NCBI GenBank assembly: GCA_014378225.1
Contig: JACMOA010000068.1
Span: forward strand, 1 to 13,714
DNA: 13,714 nucleotides
Reading direction: 5' to 3'
DNA from: Deinococcales bacterium
Lineage (GTDB): Bacteria > Deinococcota > Deinococci > Deinococcales > Deinococcaceae
Shown here piece by piece: positions 1 to 13,714 of the stretch (position 1 is its first letter; every line of letters begins with the position of its first letter). The notes beneath the pieces are model-generated. The model saw only the letters and a program-made list of their open reading frames with translations, searched no databases and had not been told where the DNA came from. Both the position numbers and the translations under genes were made by a program.

Positions 1-36
1 AGAAAGCTTCACCCTATTCCTCTCGAGTCAGACCTG

Positions 37-42
37 TACAAT
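37..42 (+). promoter_or_regulatory. Candidate -10 box for the TPP-riboswitch operon
   Basis: TACAAT lies 6 bases before position 49, where the 5' strand of riboswitch helix P1 begins, so the transcript would start at the aptamer. No good -35 is seen; CTATTC at 14-19 has 17-bp spacing but matches poorly. Confidence 0.45.
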
Positions 43-48
43 TCCAAC

Positions 49-130
49 GTCACCGGGGGTGTCCTTGCCTGCAAGGACTGAGATTAAACTCCAGGACCTG
101 ACGCGGTTTATACCGCCGTAGGGAGAGTGG
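49..130 (+). promoter_or_regulatory. TPP riboswitch (THI element) aptamer
   Basis: All hallmark segments of the THI box are present in order. GGGGGTG opens the core, followed by a P3 hairpin with TCCTTG/CAAGGA arms. Then come CTGAGAT, the P2 return strand ACTCC, the ACCTGA segment, a P5 hairpin GCGGT/ACCGC, and the terminal CGTAGGGAGAG. P1 closes weakly through TCAC at 50-53 with GTGG at 127-130. The element senses thiamine pyrophosphate in the nascent mRNA and normally shuts off thiamine synthesis or uptake genes. TAGGGAG at 119-125 is complementary to CTCCCTA at 169-175 in the downstream terminator, which gives a direct antiterminator. Confidence 0.95.
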
Positions 131-167
131 CCGCAGCCATGAGCAGTATGTGGTTTGCACTCGCTTT

Positions 168-191
168 CCTCCCTAATAGGGAGGCTTTTTT
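168..191 (+). terminator. Riboswitch expression platform: terminator that also hides the SD
   Basis: CCTCCCT (168-174) and AGGGAGG (178-184) form a 7-bp stem with a 3-base loop, followed by C and six T. The T-run ends at the base before the ATG at 192. The 3' arm AGGGAGG is also the only SD site for that ATG, with 7-base spacing. The terminator fold therefore stops transcription and would mask the ribosome site on any read-through. In the alternative fold, aptamer bases 119-125 pair with 169-175 and free AGGGAGG. Confidence 0.88.
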
Positions 192-1052
192 ATGGCATCG
201 AGCAGGTTGAATTTTGAAAGGCAAGACGAAGATGACTTGAGGGACCCTGTTCCCAGGAAGCAGTCTGCTCGAGAATCTCGCTCGAGAACCTTCAAAGCTG
301 CGCTACCCGCCCTTTTATTGGGAATAGGGGTCACTGCACTGCTGGAGCTGGGTTCTCGGTTAGGTCTGGTTCCCCCTTTTGTGTTGCCTGCTCCCAGTGC
401 GGTTGCAGGTGCGTTGGCTGACAATTTCGAGGCTTTGATGGGGCATTCGGCTCAAACTCTGCTCGAGGTGTTGGTGGGTTTTACCCTGGCCGCCGGGTTT
501 GGAATTCTGACCGCCCTGACCATGAGTGGGGTTCCACCTCTGCGCCGAATGTTGATGCCGTGGTTTATTGCCTCACAGACCGTTCCGCTGGTGGCTCTGG
601 CTCCGTTGATGCTGGTTTGGTTTGGCTTTGGCTTTGAACCCAAAATCATCATCGTGGTGCTGGCCTGCTTTTTCCCTATTACGGTGAGTTTGTTTGATGG
701 CCTCGAGCGCACCGGAAAAGACCACCTCGAGCTGATGCGCTCTTATCACGCCACTCCCGCCCAGACCTACCGCCTGACCCGCTTTCCCGCCGCGCTGCCC
801 GCGCTGTTCTCGGGTCTGAAAACGAGTGCTACCTACGCCGTGACCGCCGCCATTTTTGCCGAGTATGTGGGTGCTTATCAGGGTCTGGGTATCTGGTTAC
901 AAAGCAGCGCCAGTGTTAGAGCCACTGCACTGGTTCTGGCGGGCGTGCTGCTCAGTTGCCTGTATTCCCTGCTGCTGGTCTGGGCGGTTCAGTGGCTCGA
1001 GTCCCGCGTTTTGCGCTACCGCAATCCAGAGCGGCAGGAACGCTCGTTTTGA
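192..1052 (+). CDS. ABC transporter permease, thiamine-precursor uptake (ThiX-like)
   Basis: This 286-residue inner-membrane permease resembles the SsuC/TauC/ThiX branch of ABC importers. After a charged N-terminal tail of about 35 residues come about six hydrophobic segments, from ALLLGIGVTALLELG near residue 40 to LLSCLYSLLLVWAVQWLE near 265. The coupling-loop region near residue 175 (LFDGLERTGKDHLELMRSY...) would contact the ATPase. The ATG at 192 is fixed by the SD AGGGAGG, which is part of the riboswitch terminator. The gene sits directly behind the TPP riboswitch and 30 bases before a binding protein of the NMT1/THI5 type, so the likely cargo is a thiamine pyrimidine precursor such as formylaminopyrimidine or HMP. 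No ATPase gene is present in the unit. Fold and class are sure; substrate is inferred from the riboswitch and neighbour. Confidence 0.9.
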   Translation: MASSRLNFERQDEDDLRDPVPRKQSARESRSRTFKAALPALLLGIGVTALLELGSRLGLVPPFVLPAPSAVAGALADNFEALMGHSAQTLLEVLVGFTLAAGFGILTALTMSGVPPLRRMLMPWFIASQTVPLVALAPLMLVWFGFGFEPKIIIVVLACFFPITVSLFDGLERTGKDHLELMRSYHATPAQTYRLTRFPAALPALFSGLKTSATYAVTAAIFAEYVGAYQGLGIWLQSSASVRATALVLAGVLLSCLYSLLLVWAVQWLESRVLRYRNPERQERSF

Positions 1053-1082
1053 GTCTTTTCGTTCCATCTATTGAGAGGCCCT

Positions 1083-2120
1083 ATGAAAAACACCTTTTTT
1101 TACGTCCCCGCACTCCTAAGTCTTACCTTGCTCTCGAGTTACGCCTCCCAAGCGGCCATTCCACCTAAGATAGCTCCCTTCAGCGTCGCGCTGGATTGGG
1201 TTCCCAACGTCAACCACATCGGTATTTATGTGGCTCAGGCTCAGGGTTGGTACTTGACGCGGGGTATCAACCTCAAAATTTTGCCTTACGGTTCGGTTTC
1301 GCCCGACGTTTTGGTGGTGACCAAACGCGCTGATGTGGGCGTCTCGAGCGGGGAAGGTGTCACTACGGCAGCAGTGAACGGCGAACCCATCGTGAGCATT
1401 GCCACGCTTTACCAGACCAATACCAGCTCAATCGCGGTGCTCGAGTCCTCTAAAATTAAACGTCCCAGAGACCTCGACGGCAAGATTTACGCGGCTTTCG
1501 GAGCGCCTTATGAAAGGGTTATCCTCGAGCGCATCATCAAAACCGATGGTGGAAAAGGTGTGTTTAAAAGCCCCACCCTGAACGTTTTTGGACTCGAGGC
1601 ACTGCTGGCGGGTAGGGCGGATTTTATGTGGATTTTTGAGGGTGTAGAGGGCATCGAAGCGACCCGTCAAAAGCATAAACTGCGAACTTTCGCACTCTCG
1701 AGCTACGGTGTGCCAGACTACTACACTCCGGTTCTGACCGCACACCGGGAGCGGATTACGTCCAACGCCACAAACCTCAAAGCCTTTCTCGAGGTTACGG
1801 CCAGAGGATACGAATTTGCTCGCAAAAACCCCAAAAAGGCCACGGAATTGATGGTTCGGGCGCTGCCCAAAGGCTCAGTAGCAGACCCGAAAATCATCGA
1901 AGACGGGATTCGCTGGTTTGAGGCCAGGGGTGCTTACGTCAAACCGGGAGGGCGTTGGGGCGTGCAGGAACTGAAGCTGTGGACTGCATATCCCAAATTC
2001 TTACTCGACGGAAAAGTTTTTCCCCAGACCAAAGTGAAGTCGCTCGAGTGGGCTAAATTATTCACCAACGTTTTGTTGCCCAAGCCCCCCAAATTGGCTT
2101 CCTTGCAGAAGGGGCAATGA
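1083..2120 (+). CDS. ABC substrate-binding protein, NMT1/THI5-like (ThiY-like)
   Basis: This exported solute-binding protein has 345 residues. The N-terminus MKNTFFYVPALLSLTLLSSYASQAA is a typical Sec signal peptide. There is no lipobox Cys, so the protein is probably free in the periplasm or trimmed by signal peptidase I. The mature part opens with VALDWVPNVNHIGIYVAQAQGWY, the signature start of the NMT1/THI5 family, whose members bind thiamine pyrimidine precursors. The ATG at 1083 is preferred over the in-frame TTG at 1071 because GAGAGG (1073-1078) gives an SD with 4-base spacing and because a signal peptide then begins with Met-Lys. It follows the permease by 30 bases under the same TPP riboswitch. 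The exact ligand cannot be told from the sequence alone. Confidence 0.9.
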   Translation: MKNTFFYVPALLSLTLLSSYASQAAIPPKIAPFSVALDWVPNVNHIGIYVAQAQGWYLTRGINLKILPYGSVSPDVLVVTKRADVGVSSGEGVTTAAVNGEPIVSIATLYQTNTSSIAVLESSKIKRPRDLDGKIYAAFGAPYERVILERIIKTDGGKGVFKSPTLNVFGLEALLAGRADFMWIFEGVEGIEATRQKHKLRTFALSSYGVPDYYTPVLTAHRERITSNATNLKAFLEVTARGYEFARKNPKKATELMVRALPKGSVADPKIIEDGIRWFEARGAYVKPGGRWGVQELKLWTAYPKFLLDGKVFPQTKVKSLEWAKLFTNVLLPKPPKLASLQKGQ

Positions 2121-2133
2121 GCGATGAGCAATA

Positions 2134-2269
2134 ATACCAAGTTGCCAACACTGACTTTCTACCCTGGAAAAAGTACCGGGATGGAAATACAAAACAGCAA
2201 CCCAGTATTCTAGTTTTCTCGCTCCACTCGGCCTTGAAGAGATGGAACTTCTTCAAGGCAACTTGGTAT
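2134..2269. mobile_element. MITE-like element with 13-bp terminal inverted repeats, no gene
   Basis: ATACCAAGTTGCC (2134-2146) and its exact reverse complement (2257-2269) bound 136 bp of non-coding DNA. If the outer bases are target DNA, the ends read TA-CCAAGTTGCC...GGCAACTTGG-TA, which fits a TA target duplication as made by IS630/Tc1-type enzymes; the palindromic TA makes this ambiguous. Inside is a second hairpin with 10-bp arms (GCCTTGAAGA 2231-2240, TCTTCAAGGC 2250-2259). The stretch has no CTCGAG, unlike most of the window. It lies between convergent genes. No transposase is encoded; a bidirectional hairpin region is the alternative reading. Confidence 0.45.
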
Positions 2270-2351
2270 AAGGGGTCTATGATACGTCAGGTTCTTAGCA
2301 TAAATTGGACTTATGAAAAAGGTCTATTTGCCTGAGCGCTCGAACCCAAAA

Positions 2352-4286
2352 CTAGTTTTCTCTGAAAGCCCGAACCGTGCCGTCCATAAAAGCCACGTAC
2401 AGCACGCCGTCTCGTACCAATGGGGTGGCTTGCACCCCCACCTCAAAAATCTTTTCCCAGACCACCTGACCGGACTCGAGGTGAACGGCGGCTAGCCTGC
2501 CCTCCTCAGTGGCGACGTACAGGTACGCTCCCGAAACCACCGGACTCGAGGTGACTCTTCCGCCCAAATCCAGGGTCCAGACCTCCTCGGCGTCCTCGAG
2601 CGTGAGTGCGTGCAGCACGCCGGACCACGAGGCCGCATAGAGGACGCCTCGATACACAGCGGGACTGGCCCACAGCTCTCCCTCCAGGTCAAAAGTCCAC
2701 TCGAGCGGGTCTTCTGCTGGATACATAAAGGGTCCCCGGCGCTCGAGCCGCAGGGCGTTAAGTTCTCCAGACCAGCCAGGAACAAGTAAAATTGCGGCGT
2801 TCTTTTCAATCCGGGCGATGGCGGGCGTGGCGTTCACTGTCTCAAGCTTGATTTTCCATAATACCTTTCCACCCCTGGCTTCTAGTGCCTGAATCCAGCC
2901 GCTCTCGTCTGCCAGAATCAGGGTATGACTCCACAATAACGGTGAGGCAGTGAGCGGCCCTCCGGCCTTGAAACTCCACTCAAGCTTGCCAGATTCACGG
3001 TTTAGAGCGTAGAGAAACCCATCTCGAGCGGCAATGAGCACCTGGTTTCCCCAGCGTGTAGGGGCCGCCGTCACCTCCGCTTTGGCTTTAAAAGTCCAGT
3101 GCTCTGCCAGCGTGACCGGATTTAGAGAGCGCACTACACCGTCCCAGCTTGCGAAAATCAGCGCACCCGGCTCGAGGGTAGCAGGCGCGGTTACTTCGTC
3201 TTTGGCGCTGAGAGAAGTCCGAATTTGCCCGTTGTGCTCGAGCAGGTGAAGTTTGCCGTCCCTTGTGCCAATGCTGAGCAAATTACGGCCTCCGGTCACG
3301 GCAGCGGGCCAGCTCACTTCGCCACCCAGCGCGGTTTCCCAGCACTGACTCAGGTTTCGGGGGTTTGCTGGACCTCCTGGCTGAAACCCACTTCGGGCGC
3401 GGCCTCCTCGGTACTGTCCGGCGCTGTGCTCCGACCAGGTACAGTTTATCACCCGCTCGAGCAGGGTTCTGGCCCCCACACCACTTCCGGGTCGCTTTTC
3501 CGGAGTCTTCTCGAGAAAATTCAAAACCATGTTCGAGACCGCCTCTGGAACAGCGGGATTGCGAAGGTCTGGGCGGGGCGGTGTTTCGTAAACGTGCTGA
3601 AAAAGAACGCTCTGGTCGTTATCGGCCTCGAACAGCACGCTTCCGGTGGTGGCCCGATACATCACTGCCCCAAAGGCATAAACATCTGAAAAAGACCCAA
3701 TATTCAGTCCTTTAGCTTGCTCTGGAGCCATGTAGTGCGGCGTTCCCAGGGTATAGCCGCTGCGGGTGAGGTCCCGTGTGCCTTCGGACAGGTAAACCAG
3801 ACCAAAATCCATCACTCGAGGTTGACCGTCCCGGCCCAGCAAGATGTTGTGGGGCGTTAGGTCGCGGTGAATCAGGCCAGAGTTGTGCAGGTACTCGAGC
3901 GTATCAATCACCCGCAAGCTGGCCTGAAAGTAGCGCTCGAGCATTTCTGGGCTGTCCTCGAGCGGACCAAGCCCATCAAACGCGCCCCCCTCGAGAATCT
4001 GCATGATGAAGTAAAGCCGCCCCTCGGGGTCGTGACCGATGTCGTGAATGCTGACCACGCCGGGATGCTCGAGGTGAGCCAGGGTCCGAATCTCGCGCTC
4101 GAAGCGCACCCGGTCCGCTGGAACCACGTAATCATGAAGAATCTTGACCGCCACTTCCCGCTCGAGGTGGGTGTCCCGCGCCCGGTACACAAAAGCACTT
4201 CCCCCCTCTCCAATTCGCTCACCGAGCAGGTAGCGCCCTCCCAGCAGGGTGGGAAGTGAGGAAGGGCGCTCGAGTGAATCGGTCAT
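2352..4286 (-). CDS. Ser/Thr protein kinase fused to PQQ-type beta-propeller
   Basis: Residues about 15-285 form a Hanks-type kinase. They carry the Gly-rich loop GEGGSAFV (26-33), VAVK with Lys48, Glu65 in helix C, the catalytic loop HRDLTPHN (140-147), DFG (160-162) and APE (187-189), and all key residues are present. The usual Lys of HRDLKPxN is Thr here. After a Gly/Arg-rich linker (about 285-315), the rest is about eight repeats of the PQQ/PknB-propeller kind. Each has a W-containing strand followed by V-T-A-x-P and D-G-x-L-x-A-L, which suggests an eight-bladed propeller. There is no signal peptide or membrane helix, so both halves should be cytosolic; many related kinases place sensor domains outside the membrane. 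The start is the ATG at 4286, with a -10 box six bases upstream and no SD. The propeller probably serves in ligand or partner binding; the substrate is unknown. Confidence 0.92.
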   Translation of the reverse strand: MTDSLERPSSLPTLLGGRYLLGERIGEGGSAFVYRARDTHLEREVAVKILHDYVVPADRVRFEREIRTLAHLEHPGVVSIHDIGHDPEGRLYFIMQILEGGAFDGLGPLEDSPEMLERYFQASLRVIDTLEYLHNSGLIHRDLTPHNILLGRDGQPRVMDFGLVYLSEGTRDLTRSGYTLGTPHYMAPEQAKGLNIGSFSDVYAFGAVMYRATTGSVLFEADNDQSVLFQHVYETPPRPDLRNPAVPEAVSNMVLNFLEKTPEKRPGSGVGARTLLERVINCTWSEHSAGQYRGGRARSGFQPGGPANPRNLSQCWETALGGEVSWPAAVTGGRNLLSIGTRDGKLHLLEHNGQIRTSLSAKDEVTAPATLEPGALIFASWDGVVRSLNPVTLAEHWTFKAKAEVTAAPTRWGNQVLIAARDGFLYALNRESGKLEWSFKAGGPLTASPLLWSHTLILADESGWIQALEARGGKVLWKIKLETVNATPAIARIEKNAAILLVPGWSGELNALRLERRGPFMYPAEDPLEWTFDLEGELWASPAVYRGVLYAASWSGVLHALTLEDAEEVWTLDLGGRVTSSPVVSGAYLYVATEEGRLAAVHLESGQVVWEKIFEVGVQATPLVRDGVLYVAFMDGTVRAFREN

Positions 4287-4292
4287 GGGATT

Positions 4293-4298
4293 ATTTTA
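4293..4298 (-). promoter_or_regulatory. Leaderless-type -10 box (TAAAAT) for the kinase gene
   Basis: On the minus strand TAAAAT is followed by exactly six bases and then the ATG at 4286, so transcription would start at the A of the start codon. There is no SD upstream of that ATG. No convincing -35 is visible at 16-18 bp. Confidence 0.55.
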
Positions 4299-4454: not shown

Positions 4455-5159
4455 TCAGGCCAGTTCGGATTGGGCTTTGCGGTCGTACAGCCACATCCCG
4501 GTAAAAGCCGCAGCTACCGCTCCAGCACACGGACCCACCAAATAAATCCAGAACTGAAGCAGGTTCTCACCTCTTAGCGCGGTGATGGCTGGACCAAACC
4601 AGCGGGCCGGATTCATGGCCGCTCCGGTGAGCGGACCTCCCAGCAGAATGTCTACGGTGAGGGTGAGTCCGATAAACAGGCCAGCCAGAATGTGATTCTG
4701 ACGCACGGCTACGGTGGTGATGGTCAGCACCAGGAAAAAAGTCATAATCGCTTCAAGGAGCAGCGCCCCGATGGGATGAACTGTAAAGGCAACGCCAGCC
4801 ACCGACACCCCGCCCACCGCCGGAATCCCGAAGTCTACGGCGTTCATCAGTCCACTGCCCCCAATCAGCAGCCACATCAAACTGCCCAGGGTTGCGCCCA
4901 GAAACTGTGCGCCCCAGTAAGCAAACATCTCGTTTAAGGGGAATTTACGGATAGAAAACAGTGCCAGACTGACCGCCGGGTTGAAGTGGCCCCCCGAAAC
5001 CGGACCCAGAGCCATCGCCATGATGGCAATGGTCAGGCCGTGTGCCAGGGCAACTCCCAGTAGCCCCGCTCCCATGGCGTTGGCTCCCACGCCTGCAAAA
5101 ATTAGAGCAAACGTTCCTATCAACTCCGCCAGTAGTCGGGTGCCTAATCCATGTGTCAT
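4455..5159 (-). CDS. Aquaporin (MIP family) with TIP-like pore filter
   Basis: This six-helix channel of 234 residues is full length for bacterial MIPs. Both half-helix motifs are intact: NPA at 60-62 (GGHFNPAVS) and 183-185 (AAMNPARWFGPA). By spacing from the motifs and recalled AqpZ/GlpF sequences, the aromatic/arginine filter would be His40, Ile171, Ala180 and Arg186. That resembles plant tonoplast TIPs (His-Ile-Ala/Gly-Arg/Val) more than AqpZ (Phe-His-Thr-Arg) or GlpF (Trp-Gly-Phe-Arg). Water with ammonia, peroxide or urea is therefore possible; this is inference. The start at 5159 has TATAAT seven bases upstream and no SD. The gene and its close flanks (4409-5213) contain no CTCGAG, which is unusual here. 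It is divergent from the DUF697 gene. Confidence 0.93.
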   Translation of the reverse strand: MTHGLGTRLLAELIGTFALIFAGVGANAMGAGLLGVALAHGLTIAIMAMALGPVSGGHFNPAVSLALFSIRKFPLNEMFAYWGAQFLGATLGSLMWLLIGGSGLMNAVDFGIPAVGGVSVAGVAFTVHPIGALLLEAIMTFFLVLTITTVAVRQNHILAGLFIGLTLTVDILLGGPLTGAAMNPARWFGPAITALRGENLLQFWIYLVGPCAGAVAAAFTGMWLYDRKAQSELA

Positions 5160-5166
5160 GCCCTGG

Positions 5167-5172: not shown

Positions 5173-5236
5173 ACCTTGTGAGCGCTTTTGAGAATCGAGG
5201 GGGCAACCTTTGGCTCGAGCGGGCAGAAAACAAGTT

Positions 5237-5324
5237 CCTTCTATCCTCGAGTTTTTGATTTTACAAATTAACCCAATCCAGGCAACTTCTAAGCCGCCAT
5301 GCGCGTACACTCGAGGATAGAAGG
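5237..5324. repeat. 16-bp perfect inverted repeat between divergent genes
   Basis: The arm CCTTCTATCCTCGAGT (5237-5252) and its exact reverse complement (5309-5324) are separated by 56 bp. Each arm contains a CTCGAG, but the other 10 bp also match. The arms bracket the distal aquaporin promoter. The left arm covers that promoter's predicted start point, and the right arm overlaps the only -10-like box of the DUF697 gene (TACACT, 5306-5311). It could be a paired operator with looping, or a long hairpin. Confidence 0.75.
5258..5285 (-). promoter_or_regulatory. Distal promoter for aquaporin (TTGCCT-16-TAAAAT)
   Basis: On the minus strand, -35 TTGCCT (5285-5280) and -10 TAAAAT (5263-5258) are 16 bp apart. 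The start would be near 5251, giving a leader of about 90 bases before the ATG at 5159. The promoter lies inside the loop of the inverted repeat. Confidence 0.5.
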
Positions 5325-5350: not shown

Positions 5351-6001
5351 ATGTTGCCCAATATTATCAAGCAGGTGCTGGACAATTTTAACTTTGACAT
5401 TAAGCCCGAGTTGACCCCAGAGCAAAACGTGGAAGAAGTCACCCGCTCAGCCGCACTTCTGAGTGGCGCGATTGCGGTGGAGCCGCTGCCTTTCGCAGAT
5501 ATTTTGCTGATTACCCCGCTGCAAATGAAGATGGTGGCGCACATCGGCCTGATTTATGGCTTTAAACCCGACCGCTCGAGAATAAAAGACATCGTGGCCG
5601 AGCTGGGCGCAGCCTTCGCATTTGGTTTTCTGGCCCGCCAGTTGGTGCGTGGCGTGGCCAAAATTGTGGCTCCGGTCATTGGCGGTCTGATTACCGCTCC
5701 GGCGGTGTACGGTTCTACTTTTGCACTGGGCAAGCTAGCCGAAAGTTATTTTAAAGCGCAACTCGAGGGCAAAAACCTGGGCAAGCTCGAGGCCAAAGGG
5801 GTGGCCCGTAAAGCGCTCGAGGACGCTAGAGCGGGCGCGCCCACCATCAAAGCCCTGGGAGAATTGGCCCAGAGTTTGCGCGAGCGGGTGAAGGTGCTCG
5901 AGGGTAAATCTGAAACGGTGCAACCTGGTCAGCCCGTCTCGAGTGGCGCGTTTGAGGGTGAGGTGCTCGAGCCAACCGAGCAGCACGGGAAACTCAATTA
6001 A
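5351..6001 (+). CDS. DUF697 family protein
   Basis: This protein has 216 residues. Residues about 30-130 match the DUF697 family, seen in YcjF-like proteins and often near small GTPases. The tell-tale stretch is AVEPLPFADILLITPLQMKM (about 41-60), followed by a Gly/Ala-rich hydrophobic region (about 85-125) that could enter the membrane. The C-terminal third is charged and rich in Lys/Glu, ending in a probably flexible tail with two Val-Leu-Glu steps (EGEVLEPTEQ). The ATG at 5351 has the SD AGGAGA six bases upstream (5340-5345 region). All five Leu-Glu pairs are encoded by CTCGAG. It is a single gene divergent from the aquaporin. No GTPase partner is seen here. The biochemical function of DUF697 is not established. 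Confidence 0.82.
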   Translation: MLPNIIKQVLDNFNFDIKPELTPEQNVEEVTRSAALLSGAIAVEPLPFADILLITPLQMKMVAHIGLIYGFKPDRSRIKDIVAELGAAFAFGFLARQLVRGVAKIVAPVIGGLITAPAVYGSTFALGKLAESYFKAQLEGKNLGKLEAKGVARKALEDARAGAPTIKALGELAQSLRERVKVLEGKSETVQPGQPVSSGAFEGEVLEPTEQHGKLN

Positions 6002-6102: not shown

Positions 6103-6981
6103 ATGGCTAAAGTTAGACCTACCTCAGACGATTTCAAAAACGAGCAGAAAATCCCCTATCCTGGCAAGCAATCCGAGATGCAGATTCAACCCCAGACCGA
6201 TTTGGCCGAATACAAAGCAGCGGGCAAACTCGAGGGAAAGGTGGCGCTCATCACCGGGGCCGATTCCGGCATTGGGCGGGCGGTGGCCCTGGCTTTTGCA
6301 CTGGAGGGGGCCAAAGTCGCCATTTTGTACAATGCAAATACTAACGACGCTGAAGAAACCCGCCGGATGGTGGAAGAAAAAGAAGGTGAGTGTCTGGTCA
6401 TTCAGGGCGATGTACGCCGTAAACAGACCTGCGAAGACGCTGTGAAGGCCACGCTCGAGCGCTACGGAAAATTAAACGTGCTGGTCAACGCCGCCGCCTA
6501 TCAGATGGCGGTAAAAAACGTGCTCGAGCTGACCGAGGAACAGATTCGCCGTACTTTTGACACCAATATTCTGGGCTACATTTTCATGATTCAGGCCGCG
6601 CTGCCGCACCTGAAAAGTGGGGACACCATCATCAACACCGGAAGCATCGTGGGCGAGACCGGAAATGAGATGTTGATTGATTATACCGCCACCAAAGGTG
6701 CAATTCACGCGCTCACCAAATCCCTGGCGCTGCAATTTGGCAAGCAGAAAAACGGAATTCGAGTTAACGCGGTGCTGCCGGGTCCGGTGTGGACTCCCAA
6801 TATTCCCGCCACCATGCCGCTCGAAGAGGTACAGAAATTTGGGCATGAGGTGGCGCTGGGACGGCCTGGACAACCCGAAGAGTTGGCTCCGGCCTACGTG
6901 TTCCTGGCCTGTGACGACTCGAGCTTTGTGACCGGAAGCCTGCTGCATGTAACCGGGGGAAAACTCTCGAGCGATAGTTAA
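6103..6981 (+). CDS. SDR family NAD(P)-dependent oxidoreductase
   Basis: This is a classical short-chain dehydrogenase of 292 residues with an extra N-terminal arm of about 40 residues. The arm (PYPGKQSEMQ near 18-27) is typical of the general-stress YhdF/YhxC/YdaD-type group. Motifs are the cofactor loop TGADSGIG (51-58), a VNAAAY variant of NNAG (128-133), Asn155, Ser181 and the YTATK pair Tyr194/Lys198, so the catalytic tetrad is complete. The C-terminus has the usual FVTGSLLHVTGG motif. The enzyme should be cytosolic and oxidise or reduce an alcohol/ketone; its substrate cannot be read from sequence. The start is supported by a leaderless -10 box. It is transcribed alone, about 100 bases after the DUF697 gene. 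Confidence 0.92.
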   Translation: MAKVRPTSDDFKNEQKIPYPGKQSEMQIQPQTDLAEYKAAGKLEGKVALITGADSGIGRAVALAFALEGAKVAILYNANTNDAEETRRMVEEKEGECLVIQGDVRRKQTCEDAVKATLERYGKLNVLVNAAAYQMAVKNVLELTEEQIRRTFDTNILGYIFMIQAALPHLKSGDTIINTGSIVGETGNEMLIDYTATKGAIHALTKSLALQFGKQKNGIRVNAVLPGPVWTPNIPATMPLEEVQKFGHEVALGRPGQPEELAPAYVFLACDDSSFVTGSLLHVTGGKLSSDS

Positions 6982-7307
6982 AGCATTTTGCGGAAGTATA
7001 AAGCCAGGGGCGAAATACTTCCTGACTAAAAGGAGTAGCAACAGGAGGGCGTTCTTCACGAGAATGGAGCCAGCCGAAACGGAGCGGGCAGGCCCGAAGG
7101 TGCCGTCTTGCCCAAGACAGTGGAGGTGGCGTAATGGTAGTGAAAAACGCTTTAGTCGCGCTTTGCACTGGGCAAACGTCGAACGCCGGGTTGTGTTTGG
7201 ATTCCAGAGACTTCTAGGTTATTCTGGTTCGAGAGTATCCAAAAACACGTCTCGGACACACGCTTCAAAATCCTACTCGAGAAAAGTGGCATAATCTGAA
7301 AATAGAT
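6982..7307 (+). other. Gene-free, hairpin-rich intergenic stretch
   Basis: In these 326 bases I find no convincing gene but several stem-loops. One has 8-bp arms GGAAGTAT/ATACTTCC (6992-6999, 7015-7022). Others are GTTCT/AGAAT inside GGC/GCC (about 7049-7070), GTCTT/AAGAC with a GCCC loop (about 7107-7120), and TTTGC/GCAAA (about 7163-7177). A purine-rich AAAAGGAGTAGCAACAGGAGG precedes them. It could be the 3' end of the SDR mRNA, a small RNA or a cis-element for the cupin gene. I recognise no RNA family; T-box, Mn (yybP-ykoY), glycine and c-di-GMP riboswitches were compared from memory and did not fit. The cupin's likely promoter (CATAAT at 7290-7295) closes the region. Confidence 0.4.
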
Positions 7308-7652
7308 ATGCTAAACCACCTGGACGCACTTGCAGCTTCACCAGAACACCACAAAATTCTGCTCGAGAACGACGGAATTCGGGTAATTGAGACTCTTATT
7401 CTTCCCGGCGAAGAAACTCGAGTTCATACCCACATCTGGTCCGGGTATCTGTACATCCTCGAGTGGAGTGACTTTGAGCGCCTGGACGCGGACAGAAATG
7501 TGCTGATGGATTCCAAACGGCTCGAGCACACACCGACTGCGGGAACTGCCCTCTGGTGTGGGCCGCTCGAGCCACATTCTTTACGAAACGTGGGGAATCA
7601 AAATATTCACGTTATCATGACCGAATTTAAAACTGTTCCTGAGATTCGTTAA
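7308..7652 (+). CDS. Small single-domain cupin protein
   Basis: This protein of 114 residues is the size of a lone cupin barrel. Cupin motif 1 is seen as PGEETRVHTHIWSGYLYILE (about 34-53), with two His that could bind metal. Motif 2 is seen as GPLEPHSLRN (about 86-95), with a further His. It lacks a signal peptide, so it is probably cytosolic. Small cupins of this kind may be enzymes, isomerases or ligand sensors, and the sequence does not decide. The ATG at 7308 has no SD. A CATAAT/TAATCT -10 region ends 10-12 bases upstream, so the leader would be only a few bases. It follows the hairpin-rich gap and precedes the TSUP permease with its own promoter. Confidence 0.8.
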   Translation: MLNHLDALAASPEHHKILLENDGIRVIETLILPGEETRVHTHIWSGYLYILEWSDFERLDADRNVLMDSKRLEHTPTAGTALWCGPLEPHSLRNVGNQNIHVIMTEFKTVPEIR

Positions 7653-7711: not shown

Positions 7712-7744
7712 ATGCACTTTTCTTCCCGCTCGAGGACTTTTTGA
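7712..7744 (+). CDS. Possible leaderless 10-codon upstream ORF
   Basis: An ATG lies seven bases after the perfect TATAAT, at the predicted transcript start. It opens an ORF encoding [10 protein letters not shown], whose TGA stop (7742-7744) overlaps the TTG start (7741-7743) of the permease gene in the form TTGA. That geometry suggests translational coupling. The peptide itself has no recognisable function, and such a short frame can arise by chance. Confidence 0.35.
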
Positions 7745-8508
7745 ACGAACTCGAGCTGCTGTCTAACCTTTGGTACGGGCTTCCTTTAGCTTTTTTAGCT
7801 GGATTTATTGACGCTATTGCAGGCGGTGGCGGAACCATCACTCTTCCCGCGCTGCTCCTGATGGGGCTTTCTCCGGTCCAGGCGTCTGCTACCAACAAGC
7901 TGCTGGCCCTCTTTGGCAGCTCGAGCGCGTCTCTAACCTTCTGGAGGCAAGGCAAGGTGGACGTGGCTTTAGTCAAACGCCTGGGTCCTATTGCGTTACT
8001 GGGTAGTGTGCTGGGCGCAAGTTTGATTCTGGGCTTTAAAAATGCCGAACTTTTCAGAATTCTGATAGCCGTTCTGGTGGTGGGTGTCGGGCTTTTGGTT
8101 CTGACCAACCGTAAAATGGGCTTTGAAAACCGCTACGCTGGCCTTTCCCCTCGAGTGTGGTGGATTGGCGGGCTGGGCGTACTAATTATTGGTGTATACG
8201 ATGGTTTTTTTGGGCCTGGAACCGGAACTTTTTTGATGTTTCTGTTTGTGAGTTTCCTGCGTTTTGATTTCATCGTGGGAACGGGAAACGCCAAAGTGAT
8301 AAATTTTATGACTAATCTGGGCGCATTTTTGACCCTGGTATTCACCGGTAATATGCTGTTTTTGCTGGGCATCCCCATGGGTATCGCAAACGCACTGGGC
8401 GCTTGGGTCGGCGCTCGAGCGGCGATTTTGAAGGGAAGCGCGTTTATCAAAATTATTTACGCATTTATCATTGTGCTGGTGGTTTTGCGTCTGGTCTTCT
8501 TGAAATAA
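7741..8508 (+). CDS. TSUP (TauE/SafE, YfcA-like) membrane permease
   Basis: This integral membrane protein of 255 residues has about eight hydrophobic segments and belongs to the sulfite exporter TauE/SafE family. The first repeat carries the YfcA-type signature [20 protein letters not shown] (about 19-38) followed by ASATNKL (about 51-57). The second repeat has [11 protein letters not shown] (about 155-165) and [15 protein letters not shown] (about 182-196). Members move sulfonates, sulfite or other organic anions; the substrate is not readable here. The start is TTG at 7741, with SD GAGGA (7732-7736) four bases before. The ATG at 7712 is in another frame. The 3' end meets the convergent drug exporter gene across a terminator. 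Confidence 0.9.
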
Positions 8509-8556: not shown

Positions 8557-10395
8557 TCAACCCGCAAAGGCTGGAGTTTCATCACCGTCCACCGATTTCC
8601 TCAATGGAATTTCAGGCAAAAGTGCTGTGATGAAAAAGCCGATAAGCACGATTAAAATACCAATCTGATACAGCCGCTTGATGCCGTCGGTGAAGGCTCC
8701 CTTGAACACTTCAACCCGCTTCTCTTCATTCTCGAGCGCCACTTTTTCACCCTGGTTTAGTCCAGTCAGGATGCCCTGGAGCGTCTGGGGACGGGCCGAC
8801 TCTGGAAGAGTATTGTTGACAATCCCCTCGAGCGCCCCTCGAGACGGTTCACTGAGTTTAGGGTCTTTGAGCAGTTCCTGAGCCGCCGCCGTGTCTCTAG
8901 TGTTGAACGCCTTTTCGTATTGACCGCGTTGAGTTGCAAAGCCTGCCGAAATGCCTTTTTGAATCTGCTTGAGGTTAGGCGCTCCACCTCGCTCGGGTGC
9001 GCCTTTGCCCACTGGACCTGCGCTCGAGGTTTGGGCCGGAGGAAGCCCCGCTGCTTTTGCTCGAACAGTAGTGCTATCTGTGATGGTGGACGCAAAAATA
9101 GTTCCCAAAATGGCCAGCCCCACCGTGCCGCCCATTTGTTGAAAGAAACTTGTGCTCGAGGTAGCAATCCCAGTATTTTCTGGGGGCAGCGCGTTTTGTA
9201 CCGCCAGGGAATACAAGGAGACCACCGCGCCGAGTCCCAGGCCCAGCAGAATCATCTTGAACGTGACCTCGAGCTGGGTGGACTGTGGGGTGAGGGTGAA
9301 GCCCATCACCGCAAAGCCAATCATCAGCACCACCAGAGACCCCAGCATGACGGGTTTATAGCGCCCATAGCGCTGGGTCAATATCCCAGAAGTGATAGCG
9401 CTGGCAATCAGTCCAAAGGTAAGTGGTGTGGTGGTCAGGCCCGAACCCGTGGCGCTTAGACCGACCACATTGACCATGAACAGGGGCAGAAAGATAATGG
9501 CGGCCAGAAAACTAGCGCCCAGAAAGAAGATGGAGAGGTTAGCCAGTGCAAAGGTGCGGTTGCGAAAGAATTTCAGGTCCACCAGTGGGTCTTTTGAGCG
9601 CAACTCGGTGAAAACGAAGGCCCCTAAACCGATCACAAACAGGGCAAACCCACCCAAAATCTGCGGCGAGGTCCAAGCGTAAGCAGTTTCACCCGGCTGT
9701 GGGTTGCTTTTACCCAGAGACAGGGCCAGCAGCAATGGAATGACGGCTACCACCAGCCAGAAGGCCCCAGCATAATCCACCTTGCCGCCCACGTCGCTCG
9801 AGCGCAGGTTGGGCATTCGCCAGATAAAGGCCATTGCAATGAGTCCCAGCGGCAGGTTGACCAGAAAAATCCAGTGCCAGGAAAAGTTATCGGTGATAAA
9901 GCCGCCCACCAGCGGCCCCAGCACGCTCGAGAGTCCGAACACACCGCCCAGCGCTCCGTTGATGCGCCCTCGCTCTGCTGGAGGATAGAGGTCTGCTACG
10001 ATAGCAAACGCTGTGGTGAACAGCGCCCCACCTCCTAAACCTTGCAGCGCCCGAAACCCAATCAGGGAAAGTGCATCCCACGAAATAGCGCACAGCAGCG
10101 AAGCCACGATAAACAGCGCCATACCAAACAAAATGATGATTTTACGCCCGTACAAGTCGCCCAGCCGCCCATAGATGGGAACCACCACCGTGCTCGTGAC
10201 CAAATACCCGATGGTAAGCCAGGTGTAAAGCGAGTTGGAGATGTTCAGGTCACTTTGTATGGCAGGACCCGCCGTGCTGACGATGGTTTGGTCCAGTGCG
10301 CCCAGCAGCAGCGCCAGAATAACGCCCAACAGAATCTGACCTCTGGCTTGGGTAGAGAGGTTGAGTGCGCCGGGGGGCGCGGGTTGTGTGGTCAT
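8557..10395 (-). CDS. DHA2 family MFS multidrug exporter (EmrB/QacA type)
   Basis: This proton-coupled exporter has 612 residues and a predicted 14 membrane helices. LDQTIVSTAGPAI (34-46) is the DHA2 motif D1, GRLGDLYGRK (76-85) is motif A, and the FRALQGLGGGAL / LGPLVGGFITD stretches are also typical. The usual length is nearer 500. The excess lies between the last two helices, where about 130 hydrophilic residues (from TTVRAKAAGLPP to ENEEKRVEVFKG) form a long loop with Gly/Pro-rich and helical parts. The start is the ATG at 10395, with SD AAGGAGA five bases before; an in-frame TTG at 10413 lies upstream of the SD and is unlikely. The exported drug or metabolite is unknown. Confidence 0.93.
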   Translation of the reverse strand: MTTQPAPPGALNLSTQARGQILLGVILALLLGALDQTIVSTAGPAIQSDLNISNSLYTWLTIGYLVTSTVVVPIYGRLGDLYGRKIIILFGMALFIVASLLCAISWDALSLIGFRALQGLGGGALFTTAFAIVADLYPPAERGRINGALGGVFGLSSVLGPLVGGFITDNFSWHWIFLVNLPLGLIAMAFIWRMPNLRSSDVGGKVDYAGAFWLVVAVIPLLLALSLGKSNPQPGETAYAWTSPQILGGFALFVIGLGAFVFTELRSKDPLVDLKFFRNRTFALANLSIFFLGASFLAAIIFLPLFMVNVVGLSATGSGLTTTPLTFGLIASAITSGILTQRYGRYKPVMLGSLVVLMIGFAVMGFTLTPQSTQLEVTFKMILLGLGLGAVVSLYSLAVQNALPPENTGIATSSTSFFQQMGGTVGLAILGTIFASTITDSTTVRAKAAGLPPAQTSSAGPVGKGAPERGGAPNLKQIQKGISAGFATQRGQYEKAFNTRDTAAAQELLKDPKLSEPSRGALEGIVNNTLPESARPQTLQGILTGLNQGEKVALENEEKRVEVFKGAFTDGIKRLYQIGILIVLIGFFITALLPEIPLRKSVDGDETPAFAG

Positions 10396-10704
10396 ACGTT
10401 CTCCTTTGTGCAAATGAGTTGAAAACTACGTATGCAATAGCAAACCGATATGTTCCTAATCAAATACAATAACGTAAAGTCAGTCAGCACTACGCAAGCC
10501 AAATCAAGAACAGGTCACAGGGCCTATCCTTAAAAACGAGCTGTGTCAGATGAATATTCCTCGAGTGCGCCACACATCGGTGAACCTCGAGCGCAAATCT
10601 GGCTCGAGACAAACTGTACCCAACTCGAGCGGATAAACACCGCAGCAATTGAGGAGTTGAGGTTAAAGTAGTAGGCAAACTTTAAATGGGACCTCGAGCA
10701 AGTT
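10396..10704. other. Intergenic region upstream of the exporter gene
   Basis: I see no convincing gene in these 309 bases. They hold six CTCGAG sites between 10560 and 10720 (the last near the dehydrogenase stop). The exporter promoter should lie at 10396-10480 on the minus strand. The best guess, TTGATT-18-TATTGC, is weak. A 7-bp inverted repeat CATACGT (10393-10399)/ACGTATG (10428-10434) spans the start codon and could be an operator, but may be chance. Short frames here lack SD sites. Confidence 0.4.
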
Positions 10705-11661
10705 TCAATACCCCCTCGAGCGCTCCACCAGGTACTCGAGCGGTTCATTCTTGACAAAGTGTGTGGCATTGCGGAGCAGCAAATCTGAGGCTTTGGCCCT
10801 GAAACGGGGTCCGCCGCCGCCCACATGGGGAGTAAGAATGACGTTCTCGAGCGCCCAGAGTTTGGAATCAGTGGGCAAGGGTTCGGTCTCGAATACGTCT
10901 AGCGCAGCGCCACCTATTTTCTTTCCCTCGAGCACTTCAATTAGTGCCACCTCGTCAATGGCCGACCCACGTCCGATATTGACCACCCAGGCATGAGGAC
11001 TCAAAAGTGCAATTCGCGCTCGAGAGAGAAAGTGTTGAGTGTTTGGTGTGTGGGGCAGAGCCAGCACCAGCGCGTCAATCTTGGGAAGCAAGCGCTCGAG
11101 GTCTGAAAGCGCGTGGGTCACAAACCCCTGACGGGTTCCCGCTGTGGTCGCTACCCCTTCCACCTTCGCACCAAACGCAGCAAGCTTGTGAGCGATGTCC
11201 AGCCCAATGCTGCCCATCCCGGCAATCAGGATTCTGGACCCTTCGAGCGAGTAAAATCCCTGACCCTCGAGCGCCTGACCATACGCGCCTTTGTCCCAGG
11301 ACGCCGCATTCTGACGGTCTCGAAATTGGTGTAATTTTCGTGCAGCAGAAAGTAAAAGGGCCACCGCTAGCTCTGCGGTGGGGGCGTCGTGCAGGCCCTC
11401 GCCTTTGCACACCTGCACGCTCGAGGGCAGATTTTCAGCCAGAACATGGTCTATTCCGGCAGTCAGGGTTTGGACCCAACGCAGATTCGGCATCGTTTTG
11501 ACAAGGAGTTGCAAGACTTTACGAGGAATCCCCCAGACCAAAAGTGCATCAGCCTCGAGCAAAACGGGGTCCAGCGGTTCGTTCACCGCGAAACGTTTTA
11601 CCTCGAGCGGAAGTGCAGGCAAGGTCCAGTTCACGGTTTCTGGGATGAGCATGGTAGGCAT
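10705..11661 (-). CDS. D-isomer specific 2-hydroxyacid dehydrogenase
   Basis: This soluble dehydrogenase has 318 residues. The NAD-binding Rossmann fold is marked by GMGSIG (148-153). The catalytic triad of the family is present: Arg231 in VNIGRGSAID, Glu260 in VFETEPLP and His279 in LTPHVGG. The GEGLHDAPTAELAVALLLSA segment (about 87-106) is the usual substrate/cofactor-domain hinge. The enzyme should interconvert a 2-keto acid and a D-2-hydroxy acid with NAD(P)H, in the glyoxylate/hydroxypyruvate reductase-like branch, but the substrate is not decided. The ATG at 11661 is preferred over the one at 11652 because a complete promoter ends six bases before it. It is an independent unit. Confidence 0.92.
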   Translation of the reverse strand: MPTMLIPETVNWTLPALPLEVKRFAVNEPLDPVLLEADALLVWGIPRKVLQLLVKTMPNLRWVQTLTAGIDHVLAENLPSSVQVCKGEGLHDAPTAELAVALLLSAARKLHQFRDRQNAASWDKGAYGQALEGQGFYSLEGSRILIAGMGSIGLDIAHKLAAFGAKVEGVATTAGTRQGFVTHALSDLERLLPKIDALVLALPHTPNTQHFLSRARIALLSPHAWVVNIGRGSAIDEVALIEVLEGKKIGGAALDVFETEPLPTDSKLWALENVILTPHVGGGGPRFRAKASDLLLRNATHFVKNEPLEYLVERSRGY

Positions 11662-11667
11662 GGGTTG

Positions 11668-11696
11668 AGTTTAACCCAGCGGTGGGACGCGAACAA
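11668..11696 (-). promoter_or_regulatory. Leaderless promoter TTGTTC-17-TAAACT
   Basis: On the minus strand, -35 TTGTTC (11696-11691) and -10 TAAACT (11673-11668) are 17 bp apart. Six bases follow before the ATG at 11661, and no SD is present. This is the most complete of the leaderless promoters in the window. Confidence 0.7.
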
Positions 11697-11781
11697 AACC
11701 CCCGAGCGTAAGCAATCGAGGTGAAATGGTTTGTATGGGAACACTCGACCAGAGAGTGAGCAAAAACCTATAGGTTGAGTT

Positions 11782-12369
11782 TCACAATGCCACCAAACCA
11801 TTGCGTACCGCCACGCCCACCGCTTCAGCACGGCTGGAGACCTCGAGTTTGAAAAAGACCTGTCCCAGATGGAACTTGACCGTGTGTTCACTGATGCTAA
11901 GGCGCTTGGCGATAGTTTTGTTGGGCAAACCCTGGGAAAGCAACTCGAGCACTTCCCGCTCTCGAGGGGTCAGGTCTGTCTCGAGTGTGGGACGGCGTTG
12001 AGTGGGTAGTGGGTCACTCGAGAATTTTTCTAGCGGGGCAGGGGAGAGCACACACAATCCCTGAGCCACCGCAACAATTGCTGCCGCTAACTCGAGCGCG
12101 TCAGCGTCGCTGTGCAGCAGGGCCACTCCCGGCTCGAGCGGAGGAAGCGGCTCGTCTGGCTCGAGCAGGTACACCCGTGGGGGCAAGTCTGAACGGGTCC
12201 ACCCCAGCTCGAGCGGACCCGCAAAAATCAGGACCTCGAGCGTTCCCCAGTCGAGGCCCTCGAGACTGTTACCTTCCCCTACAAGCCGCGTATGTCCGCC
12301 CTCTTCCAGCAGGGAACGAAGCCCCCGCCGCAGGGTTGCGGAGTGAGCGACTATCCAGGTTTCAACCAT
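11782..12369 (-). CDS. LuxR/NarL-type regulator with degenerate receiver domain
   Basis: This protein has 195 residues. The C-terminal part (about 130-195) is a clear LuxR-type helix-turn-helix: LTPREREVLELLSQGLPNKT followed by ISEHTVKFHL. Residues 1-110 have the size and pattern of a NarL-like receiver (LRRGLRSLLEE as helix 1), but the acidic pocket is gone: the DD pair reads AHS near residue 8, and the phospho-Asp position in VLIFAG is not Asp. Phosphorylation by a histidine kinase is thus unlikely. The ATG at 12369 is set by the SD AAGGAGG with 5-base spacing; an in-frame start at 12420 lies upstream of it. It lies 109 bases downstream of the PDZ protease gene on the same strand. Target genes are unknown. 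Confidence 0.88.
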   Translation of the reverse strand: MVETWIVAHSATLRRGLRSLLEEGGHTRLVGEGNSLEGLDWGTLEVLIFAGPLELGWTRSDLPPRVYLLEPDEPLPPLEPGVALLHSDADALELAAAIVAVAQGLCVLSPAPLEKFSSDPLPTQRRPTLETDLTPREREVLELLSQGLPNKTIAKRLSISEHTVKFHLGQVFFKLEVSSRAEAVGVAVRNGLVAL

Positions 12370-12423
12370 TGTCCCTCCTTTTGCACCCTGTACATTGCAC
12401 AAATATGGAATCGCGCCCACCTG

Positions 12424-12464
12424 ATTTTAAGGTTCCCATCCAGTTCCATTCAGAATAGATTCTG
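12424..12464 (-). promoter_or_regulatory. Candidate promoter and operator of the LuxR-type regulator
   Basis: TAAAAT (12429-12424, minus strand) is a good -10, predicting a start near 12417 and a leader of about 48 bases with the SD. The -35 is weak. A 14-bp dyad, CAGAAT-AG-ATTCTG (12451-12464), covers the -35 area and could be a binding site, perhaps for the regulator itself. Confidence 0.4.
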
Positions 12465-12478
12465 TTTTGCTTGAAATC

Positions 12479-13372
12479 TCAATTCTTCTCGCCCCTTGCA
12501 CCTATCTCGAGAGTGACTGTTACTTGTGTTCCCGCCCGTACTATCTCGAGGGAAAAACTCTGACCAATCCGTTCACGGCTGACCTGAGCTTGCAGGTCGT
12601 CGGTATCCTCGAGCGCAACCCCACCAAAACTCAACAGCACGTCTCCGATGAAAAGTCCCGCTCGAGCGGCTGGGCTTTGGGGGTCCACACTCACTACCAA
12701 GAGACCCCGGCGGCTTGCGCCCTCGCTCGGCAAGCGCACCGACTGGCTGCCGATGCCCAGAAACGGGTGTGGACGGCGCTCCCCTTGCGCCATCAGGCCA
12801 ACCGTTTCGACCACCAGACTGGCCGGAATGCCCACGCCCTGACCGCGCAGAACCCCGGCGTTGCCCAGACCCACCATAGCGCCGTTCAGGTTGATGAAGG
12901 CTCCGCCAGAGAATCCAGGGTAAGGTTGCGCGTCGCTGCGAAAATAGCGCTCGAGCCGCTGGCCCTGCCCCCTCATGCCTCGTCCCATGCTGACCGGGCC
13001 GCCCACCGCACTGACCACGCCGTGTGACACCATCACGGCGTCTGGGCGAGCCACCCACAGCACGAGTTGTCCTAACTCGGGGTCTTGACCCACCGCAAGC
13101 GCAGGGTTGGTCAACCCCTCCACCCGCAGCAGCGCTAGGTCGCTCGAAGGGTCTCGTCCCAGCACGCTAGCGGCCCATTTGTGTCCGCCTTCCACCGTCA
13201 CACGGGCTTCATCGCCCTCGAGCACATGGTCTACTGTAAGCACCCGTTCAGGAGCCACCACCACCCCCGAAATAGGTCTGCGTCCACCCCACACCGTCAC
13301 CACAGACTGCGCCGCCTGCGCTACCGCCCGCACCATCGCGCTCGAGAGGGTTTCCATCATGTTGTTTTCCAT
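12479..13372 (-). CDS. HtrA-like trypsin/PDZ serine protease without signal peptide
   Basis: This S1C-type protease has 297 residues. The triad is His49 (LTVDHV), Asp78 (SSDLALL) and Ser155 (PGFSGGAF; GNSGG in most HtrA proteins). A single PDZ domain follows, about 203-290, with HPFLGIG and the SPAARAGLFIGDVLLSFGG core. There is no signal peptide or membrane anchor at any plausible start, unlike most HtrA/Deg proteins, so it should act in the cytosol unless exported some other way. The start was set at 13372 because TACTCT lies exactly at the leaderless -10 position. Other in-frame ATGs are 13408, 13360 and 13357, and the choice is uncertain. The LuxR-type regulator follows. Confidence 0.88.
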   Translation of the reverse strand: MENNMMETLSSAMVRAVAQAAQSVVTVWGGRRPISGVVVAPERVLTVDHVLEGDEARVTVEGGHKWAASVLGRDPSSDLALLRVEGLTNPALAVGQDPELGQLVLWVARPDAVMVSHGVVSAVGGPVSMGRGMRGQGQRLERYFRSDAQPYPGFSGGAFINLNGAMVGLGNAGVLRGQGVGIPASLVVETVGLMAQGERRPHPFLGIGSQSVRLPSEGASRRGLLVVSVDPQSPAARAGLFIGDVLLSFGGVALEDTDDLQAQVSRERIGQSFSLEIVRAGTQVTVTLEIGARGEKN

Positions 13373-13378
13373 GTGCTC

Positions 13379-13384
13379 AGAGTA
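13379..13384 (-). promoter_or_regulatory. Leaderless-type -10 box (TACTCT) for the PDZ protease
   Basis: TACTCT on the minus strand is followed by six bases and the ATG at 13372. There is no SD. The -35 is not recognisable, so this is weaker than the other cases. Confidence 0.35.
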
Positions 13385-13387
13385 GAA

Positions 13388-13421
13388 GCTCGAGGGGGAG
13401 TGCGGCATCCCCCGCTCGAGC
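13388..13421. repeat. Stem-loop built from two CTCGAG sites
   Basis: GCTCGAGGGGGA (13388-13399) pairs with TCCCC (13408-13412) and CTCGAGC (13415-13421), leaving a 2-base bulge and an 8-base loop. It sits just upstream of the chosen protease start and includes the alternative ATG at 13408. Confidence 0.5.
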
Positions 13422-13508
13422 AGGAAGCGCCCCCATCAAATGGTCAGGCTCGAGTGGTCAGAGCAGGAAGATTTGTGTGTTGAACTTTTTTGTAATTCTG
13501 AAGCTTAT

Positions 13509-13525
13509 GAGGTGCTAGACACCTC
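13509..13525. other. Short stem-loop GAGGTG/CACCTC
   Basis: A perfect 6-bp stem with a 5-base loop lies 35 bases past the stop of the partial gene at the window end. It has no U-run on either strand, so it is only a weak terminator candidate. Confidence 0.4.
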
Positions 13526-13559
13526 TTACAGCACTCATCATCTCTACTGAAGAAGTTTC

Positions 13560-13714
13560 TCAAATCAGGTCTCGGTATGCTGGAAATCCTGGAATTGACC
13601 TGGCCTGAAGAATCGCGTGAACGATGGCTCGACCTAGGGTATCGGCGGCCACCGCTCCAATGCGGCTCAGCTCGAGTGGACTCTTTACAACAACCTCTCC
13701 GGTGGCCACAGCAA
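13560..13714 (-). CDS. C-terminal end of a gene, possibly P1 family (S58) peptidase
   Basis: An open frame enters from the right edge of the window and reads 50 residues to a TGA at 13560-13562; the first full codon ends at 13712. It begins AVATGEVVVKSPLELSRIGA and ends VPGFPAYRDL-like (IPGFPAYRDLI). The ATGEV...LS.IGAVAADTLGRAIVHAI pattern recalls the C-terminal strand and helix of P1/DmpA-type (S58) aminopeptidases, where an ATGE step precedes an Ala-rich helix. The match is from memory and short, so the family is uncertain. That it is coding is supported by the amphipathic helix pattern and a CTCGAG-coded Leu-Glu. It is on the same strand as the protease and about 190 bases upstream of it. 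Confidence 0.55.
   Translation of the reverse strand, partial: AVATGEVVVKSPLELSRIGAVAADTLGRAIVHAILQARSIPGFPAYRDLI

Follow-up and report, generated by a model that had tools for sequence, protein, structure and literature searches.

CTCGAG as a highly iterated palindrome in genomes of the Deinococcales

Results

The window and its CTCGAG sites

The stretch of DNA studied here, a window of 13,714 bases from a draft genome of a Deinococcales bacterium, contains 12 open reading frames (ORFs) that we took as genes and is studded with the palindromic hexamer CTCGAG (Table 1). The exact count is 108 copies, the first at positions 22-27 and the last at 13671-13676, with 18 of them outside the 12 ORFs. 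Zero-order and first-order models predict 4.0 and 3.6 copies, respectively, and 200 dinucleotide shuffles of the window gave a mean of 3.41 and a maximum of 11, which puts the excess at about 27- to 32-fold. These numbers agree with the initial annotation, made from the sequence alone, which had put some 108 copies against about four expected (about 28-fold) and whose three intergenic examples, at 5246, 7276, and 10560, are all correct. The runner-up among palindromic hexamers, AGCGCT, occurs 12 times. Markov models of higher order fitted to the window itself absorb the motif, with 49 copies expected at third order and 106 at maximal order.

Table 1. CTCGAG sites of the window and the ORFs that carry them
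Feature	Position	Strand	Remarks
CTCGAG, 108 copies	22..13676		Mean spacing 128 bp
Carrier ORF: ABC transporter permease	192..1052	+	PF00528
Carrier ORF: NMT1/THI5-like protein	1071..2120	+	PF09084
Carrier ORF: protein kinase with beta-propeller/PQQ repeats	2352..4286	-	PF00069
Carrier ORF: major intrinsic protein	4455..5159	-	PF00230
Intergenic CTCGAG	5246..5251		Between ORFs 4455-5159(-) and 5351-6001(+); more copies at 5214, 5310
Carrier ORF: short-chain dehydrogenase	6103..6981	+	PF13561
Intergenic CTCGAG	7276..7281		Between ORFs 6103-6981(+) and 7308-7652(+)
Carrier ORF: TauE/SafE	7741..8508	+	PF01925
Carrier ORF: MFS transporter	8557..10413	-	PF07690; best contig-scan match L005, 82% identity in best segment
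Five intergenic CTCGAG (10560, 10586, 10603, 10624, 10693)	10560..10698		Between ORFs 8557-10413(-) and 10705-11661(-)
Carrier ORF: D-2-hydroxyacid dehydrogenase	10705..11661	-	PF02826
Carrier ORF: trypsin-like peptidase with PDZ	12479..13408	-	PF13365, PF13180

The CTCGAG excess is genome-wide and occurs in most genomes sampled from the order

The draft genome to which the window belongs (G000; 1.94 Mb in 396 contigs, 59% complete) holds 14,690 copies of CTCGAG, or 7.6 per kb (7,585 per Mb; one per 132 bp), and only two copies of the reversed word GAGCTC. With 7.9 per kb, the window is therefore not the outlier that the initial annotation had allowed for. We surveyed 111 genomes of the order (a phylum-wide count gave the identical 111). 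Six exceed 5 per kb, and all belong to families f1 and f5: G000 and G001, which are of one genus, and G007, G011, G015, and G019 of family f5. The five other than G000 have about 5,900-6,500 copies per Mb. G002, of the same family as G000, has 3.6 per kb; we refer to it and these six as the seven motif-rich genomes. G003, also of this family, has 0.30 per kb, and G041 and G052 are likewise at about 0.3. Intermediate densities are seen in G068 (3.1 per kb) and G005 (2.9 per kb).

Enrichment was then measured against backgrounds in which CTCGAG was masked, in a panel of 13 samples of 14 to 500 kb each, not whole genomes, drawn from 11 genomes of the order and from two separately named public records of metagenome-assembled genomes (MAGs) titled Deinococcales bacterium (L005 and L006). 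For G000, an early set in which 19 of 20 contigs had been picked through CTCGAGN8CTCGAG matches is biased (8.58 per kb); our main figures come from an unselected set of 20 contigs (8.01 per kb), and a 155-kb sample composed of the biased contigs plus the window served for reading frames, flanks, one-base-off words, phasing, and the CCTCGAGG counts. In the first comparison with L005 and L006, G000 was represented by the window and four small loci.

When all 64 palindromic hexamers were compared with a Markov background, as the initial annotation had proposed, CTCGAG was the most over-represented in 11 of the 13 samples (7.7- to 103-fold), the exceptions being G003 and G006. The ratio to the masked first-order background was 103 in G007 (3,073 seen, 30 expected), 69 in G001 (236 and 3.4), 66 in L006, 51 in G019, and 50 in G000 (873 and 17.5). 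It was 20 in L005, 18 in G104, 15 in G068, 10 in G002, 8.3 in G063, and 7.7 in G005, and fell to 2.3 in G006 and 0.5 in G003. In the 155-kb sample of G000, the masked models predict 26 copies at first order and 15 at second, while 1,321 were seen. These results confirm that the CTCGAG excess is real, genome-wide, and shared by most of the members sampled. Judged from densities alone, much of the order appears to have inherited the motif from a common ancestor, with the greatest strength in families f1 and f5 and loss or weakness in G003 and G006.

Codon usage does not account for the excess, and Leu-Glu pairs increase with it

In the 155-kb sample, CTCGAG occurs in all three reading frames, as the initial annotation had noticed, at 665, 170, and 241 sites; synonymous resampling at overall codon usage predicts 120, 8, and 13. 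The commonest frame is the one that encodes Leu-Glu. The motif is also about as dense outside genes as within them in G000 (7.94 per kb coding, 8.31 non-coding), G007 (6.18 and 5.94), and G019 (6.26 and 7.21), where genes are simple longest-ORF calls and small genes may fall in the non-coding stretches. Since resampling falls far short in every frame and the two densities are similar, the excess does not stem from codon usage, in line with what the initial annotation had argued.

Its remark that Leu-Glu is usually written CTCGAG while Leu elsewhere is mostly CTG also holds in this sample. In the unselected contigs of G000, 431 of 524 Leu-Glu pairs (82%) are encoded by CTCGAG, compared with a proportion of 0.064 (6.4%) from codon use outside Leu-Glu; for G007 the numbers are 1,530 of 2,194 and 1.5%. 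The proteins themselves differ as well. Leu-Glu pairs reach 2.49 times expectation in G000, and the excess lies between 2.1 and 2.7 for G000, G001, G007, G019, L005, and L006, at 1.97 for G002, and between 1.35 and 1.73 for G104, G005, G068, and G063, while low-motif G003 and G006 show 1.02 and 1.06. Over the 13 samples, which are not independent by descent, CTCGAG density and Leu-Glu excess have a rank correlation of 0.87. The density of the motif is thus associated with altered protein sequence. The Leu-Glu excess suggests that a proteome can be shaped by a motif of this kind, a point of relevance to analyses of codon usage and protein evolution in these genomes.

CTCGAG sites are conserved between relatives and their flanks differ by lineage

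A comparison of sister species at orthologous sites, also proposed in the initial annotation, showed that CTCGAG is kept well above control hexamers of the same composition. Between G007 and G011 (12.2 kb aligned, 72% identity), 54 of 77 sites are shared, compared with 90 of 416 controls (22%; p 4e-16). G007 shares 18 of 39 sites with G015 (control 13%) and 9 of 25 with G019 (control 11%), and G000 shares 7 of 16 with L005 and G001 (controls 33 of 226), a small set in which one alignment was counted twice in the controls and the length. Sites not shared between G007 and G011 are rarely one base off (11 of 54, compared with 119 of 326 for the controls; p 0.02), a scarcity that suggests all-or-none recognition of the word. 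Within the 155-kb sample, TTCGAG (138) and CTTGAG (141) are at about twice expectation or more and CACGAG is at about half, as decay by common transitions would give. C-to-T decay is equal at the two cytosines, with no sign of a single methyl-cytosine hotspot.

The preference for CTCGAGCG flanks reported by the initial annotation is real in G000, where the flank dinucleotide is CG on 607 of 2,642 sides, but it is local: G007 does not favor it, while G002 prefers the octamer CCTCGAGG, its commonest form of CTCGAG (185 of 362; L090-L094). The same octamer is below the flank-based prediction in G000 (2, with 69 predicted), G007 (30 and 95), and G019 (24 and 86). Flanks are only secondary, and their preferences differ by lineage.

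Spacing of CTCGAG gives no evidence of a density limit

In the pooled non-coding DNA of G000, G007, and G019, a second CTCGAG 10-30 bp away is about as common as random placement gives (60 gaps of 10-20 bp, where 53.4 are expected), and the data thus show no density limit. One site does not clearly render a second one close by redundant. This disfavors functions that need one site per given distance, among them saturation near one site in 1,000 nt as in the cyanobacterial model (PMC4390886), and the absence of clear spacing redundancy likewise argues against functions for which a minimum density is enough.

Coding DNA behaves differently at short range. With another site 10-20 bp away, CTCGAG encodes 69 of 160 Leu-Glu pairs in G007, 72 of 127 in G019, and 34 of 52 in the unselected contigs of G000, compared with 1,170 of 1,531, 728 of 918, and 275 of 311, respectively, with another site at 41-400 bp. 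The coding data suggested a protein footprint as the cause, and the effect persists once overlapping positions are taken out, but we do not favor this reading, because the non-coding DNA has no consistent exclusion past about 10 bp. The exclusion in genes may instead be explained by the messenger RNA: two copies of the palindrome can pair as a hairpin, and close pairs in genes would be removed for that reason. The coding rate is lower where the nearest other site is more than 400 bp away (10 of 28 in G007, 5 of 11 in G019), as would be expected of recently acquired stretches.

XhoI-type enzymes do not clearly track the motif, and the widest methyltransferase group found covers three of seven motif-rich genomes

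CTCGAG is the recognition word of the restriction enzymes XhoI and PaeR7I. A nuclease of the XhoI family (PF04555) is present in four of the 111 genomes and was found in none of the seven motif-rich ones, of which G000 is 59% complete. Seven other genomes, none of them motif-rich, have close relatives (45-57% identity) of the methyltransferase that adjoins the XhoI-like gene of G008; among the motif-rich genomes, its relatives are distant or none were found, the longest match having 26% identity (G015). Within genus g11, the four carriers of a G008-type methyltransferase (at least 50% identity) average 2.3 CTCGAG per kb and the 14 others 2.1 (p 0.08). XhoI-type enzymes are accordingly not supported as the cause of the excess, the nuclease having been found in no motif-rich genome and the methyltransferase not clearly tracking density. 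As a separate observation, the XhoI-family nucleases at L125-L129 adjoin methyltransferase-like ORFs, of which that of G048 (340 amino acids) looks unlike that of G008, and the match to the G008 nuclease contains stops.

A search for four Pfam families of methyltransferases, MT-A70 and HsdM-type not among them, in eight genomes, and for one family in a ninth as well, with grouping at 40% identity, returned as its widest group a 5-methylcytosine (m5C) enzyme present in three of the seven motif-rich genomes (G001, G007, and G011; 59-74% identity between closest members), whose best solved relative is M.HhaI. The gene after the G007 enzyme, which has a counterpart in G011, weakly resembles a ribosomal RNA methyltransferase, below the curated cut-off. 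The m5C group was not found in G015 and G019 (91-92% complete) or in G002, and G000 gave no match to any of the four families, for which its 59% completeness may be the explanation. The neighborhoods of methyltransferase genes, which are often mobile, have 4.3 to 5.5 CTCGAG per kb in five genomes and 0.25 at the one locus of G002.

Many other palindromes are strongly avoided: 22 of the 64 palindromic hexamers in G000, and 19 of 64 in both G007 and G019, are below a tenth of expectation. In G000 (L427-L446, L105-L124, and the window), GATC is nearly missing (10, with 278 expected in 104 kb), and almost no copies are seen of several palindromes that include GAGCTC, CCGCGG, and GGATCC. G007 (L100-L104, L362-L381) has 12 GGCC with 1,506 expected and 112 CCGG with 740 expected, and GGCC is also scarce in G011 (4, with 371 expected) and G019 (56 and 1,737).

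Discussion

CTCGAG shows the genome-wide palindrome excess and the presence in coding and non-coding DNA, in all frames, by which highly iterated palindromes (HIPs) are recognized. Its conservation between species and its excess beyond codon choice further support the assignment of the initial annotation to a HIP1-type class, and we regard CTCGAG as a HIP-type palindrome, probably inherited within the lineage and maintained at individual sites. HIP1 (GCGATCGC) and the alternate HIPs of cyanobacteria (PMC4390886) are likewise palindromes iterated through the genome, over-represented in the majority of a lineage and scarce in a few genomes of it. CTCGAG also resembles HIPs in having flank variants between relatives, such as the octamer favored by G002. 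Unlike HIP1, it is a hexamer and not an octamer, a different word, and outside cyanobacteria (the nearest named records are Deinococcales). The richest genomes have about 6 to 8 sites per kb, above the 500-2,500 per Mb (about 0.5-2.5 per kb) reported for HIPs, with one alternate HIP higher (PMC4390886). CTCGAG has 67% G+C, compared with the criterion of at least 75% for replacing forms; its deviations are not concentrated at the first and last positions, given the equal surplus of TTCGAG and CTTGAG; and no methyltransferase common to all carriers was found among the four families and the one XhoI-neighbor protein searched. The literature that we searched, with most subscription papers outside it, contains no account of an iterated CTCGAG in the order. 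How HIPs arose and what they serve for is unsettled, and CTCGAG is a denser case outside cyanobacteria.

The density of CTCGAG points to a process that favors one word at site after site. As our leading but tentative explanation, to which we give somewhat less than even chances, we propose a sequence-specific bias in repair or conversion that favors CTCGAG site by site. A protein that recognizes CTCGAG would steer the repair or conversion of a mismatched duplex in favor of the strand with the intact word; lost sites would be restored and chance gains kept, which amounts to a substitution drive. In its favor stand the genome counts and the enrichment on masked backgrounds, the similar coding and non-coding densities in G000, G007, and G019, the Leu-Glu excess, the conservation of sites, the low spacing redundancy, and the motif densities around methyltransferase genes. 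A known sequence-specific repair is very short patch (VSP) repair by Vsr at the Dcm sites of E. coli, which enriches its own site and acts on one T:G mismatch. CTCGAG differs in that all half-site positions are held and CTTGAG/CTCAAG are not depleted (141, with 65-78 expected). It is doubtful, if conceivable, that such a drive, without benefit to the cell, has rewritten the genome, spread through much of the order, and doubled Leu-Glu in its strongest carriers without a dedicated methyltransferase.

Several observations weigh against a repair or conversion bias. One-base-off words are not depleted genome-wide, as judged from the 155-kb sample. Coding and non-coding densities are unequal in G002 (3.83 and 2.26 per kb), G104 (2.65 and 0.98), and L005 (5.35 and 10.95). 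Non-coding gaps of 6-9 bp are depleted (6 seen, 21.6 expected; 6 and 16.1 at 7-9 bp, 0 and 5.5 at 6 bp), gaps of 31-40 bp disagree between genomes (8 seen and 14.4 expected in G007, 5 and 15.4 in G019, 19 and 7.3 in G000), and the exclusion in coding DNA extends 20-40 bp or more. We know of no repair bias that acts at all three half-site positions, and our XhoI-type and methyltransferase searches found no responsible enzyme. Finally, the same equilibrium is expected if each site is under additive weak selection, and separating the two needs polymorphism or mutation-accumulation data.

Such selection, which we consider possible though on the unlikely side, would operate if an abundant protein, nucleoid-organizing or other, bound or modified each CTCGAG and every site added to fitness without saturation. 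The maintenance of sites, their even density, and the change at the amino-acid level fit a site-wise advantage. However, no consistent diminishing return is seen at 10-100 bp in non-coding DNA or at about 60-200 bp in genes, which would be odd for a function served by density, and G000 shows no phasing at 10.5 bp, although the values exceed noise in G007 (0.125, noise 0.078) and G002 (0.206, noise 0.104), codon periodicity included.

We think it unlikely that the motif is explained by the methylation-directed mismatch repair put forward for the HIPs of cyanobacteria. In this scheme, one strand carries the mark of a CTCGAG methyltransferase, and the resulting bias in repair both creates and keeps sites. 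The m5C group common to G001, G007, and G011 would suit it, but G015, G019, and G002 gave no member of this group, G008-type relatives in the motif-rich genomes are distant or were not found, and carriers in genus g11 hardly differ from the others. Nor does either cytosine show more C-to-T decay. The model, as set out in PMC4390886, reaches saturation at around one site in 1,000 nt, and the density here is about seven times that.

That the motif is the relic of a restriction-modification system with CTCGAG as its target, or a self-mark for defense, is very improbable. The strong avoidance of other palindromes in G000 and G007 suggests a restriction pressure that spares CTCGAG, but restriction sites are normally avoided and not iterated. 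In contrast to the situation expected of an XhoI/PaeR7I system, the nuclease family was not found in the motif-rich genomes and the sites are enriched. The same six letters are the target of a Nocardia methyltransferase, described in PMC4752239 as an orphan; its motif clusters beside dnaA, whereas CTCGAG here fills the genome.

An uptake sequence or a Chi-like recombination signal is more improbable still. The relatives include naturally transformable species, but the known uptake and Chi sequences occur less densely and are either longer or oriented, and a palindrome has no orientation. Codon usage, composition, or an assembly artefact is refuted by the counts despite Leu-Glu being the commonest frame, given the resampling shortfall, the similar non-coding density, and the excess in the separately named L005 and L006.

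The tests therefore weigh against XhoI-type restriction, an XhoI-type methyltransferase, and minimum-density functions. Because relatives that lack the motif (G003 and G006) exist beside graded ones, a presence-absence comparison can be used to look for the gene behind it.

Repeats and viral contigs

Two observations concern repeats. In the window, about 44 bases at 7081-7124 match three places of G001 at 84% identity and may be a dispersed short repeat. Positions 6146-6387 of L100 (G007) belong to a dispersed repeat family present in many places of G011, G015, and G019; its core, 6350-6382, gives matches in both orientations. Viral contigs with three close CTCGAG were also found, at least 120 stretches in at least 80 loci, from which we drew no link to the motif. 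The densest viral contigs among the matches listed reach 6.8 per kb and are GC-rich, and 11 of the 15 top ones also carry GAGCTC.

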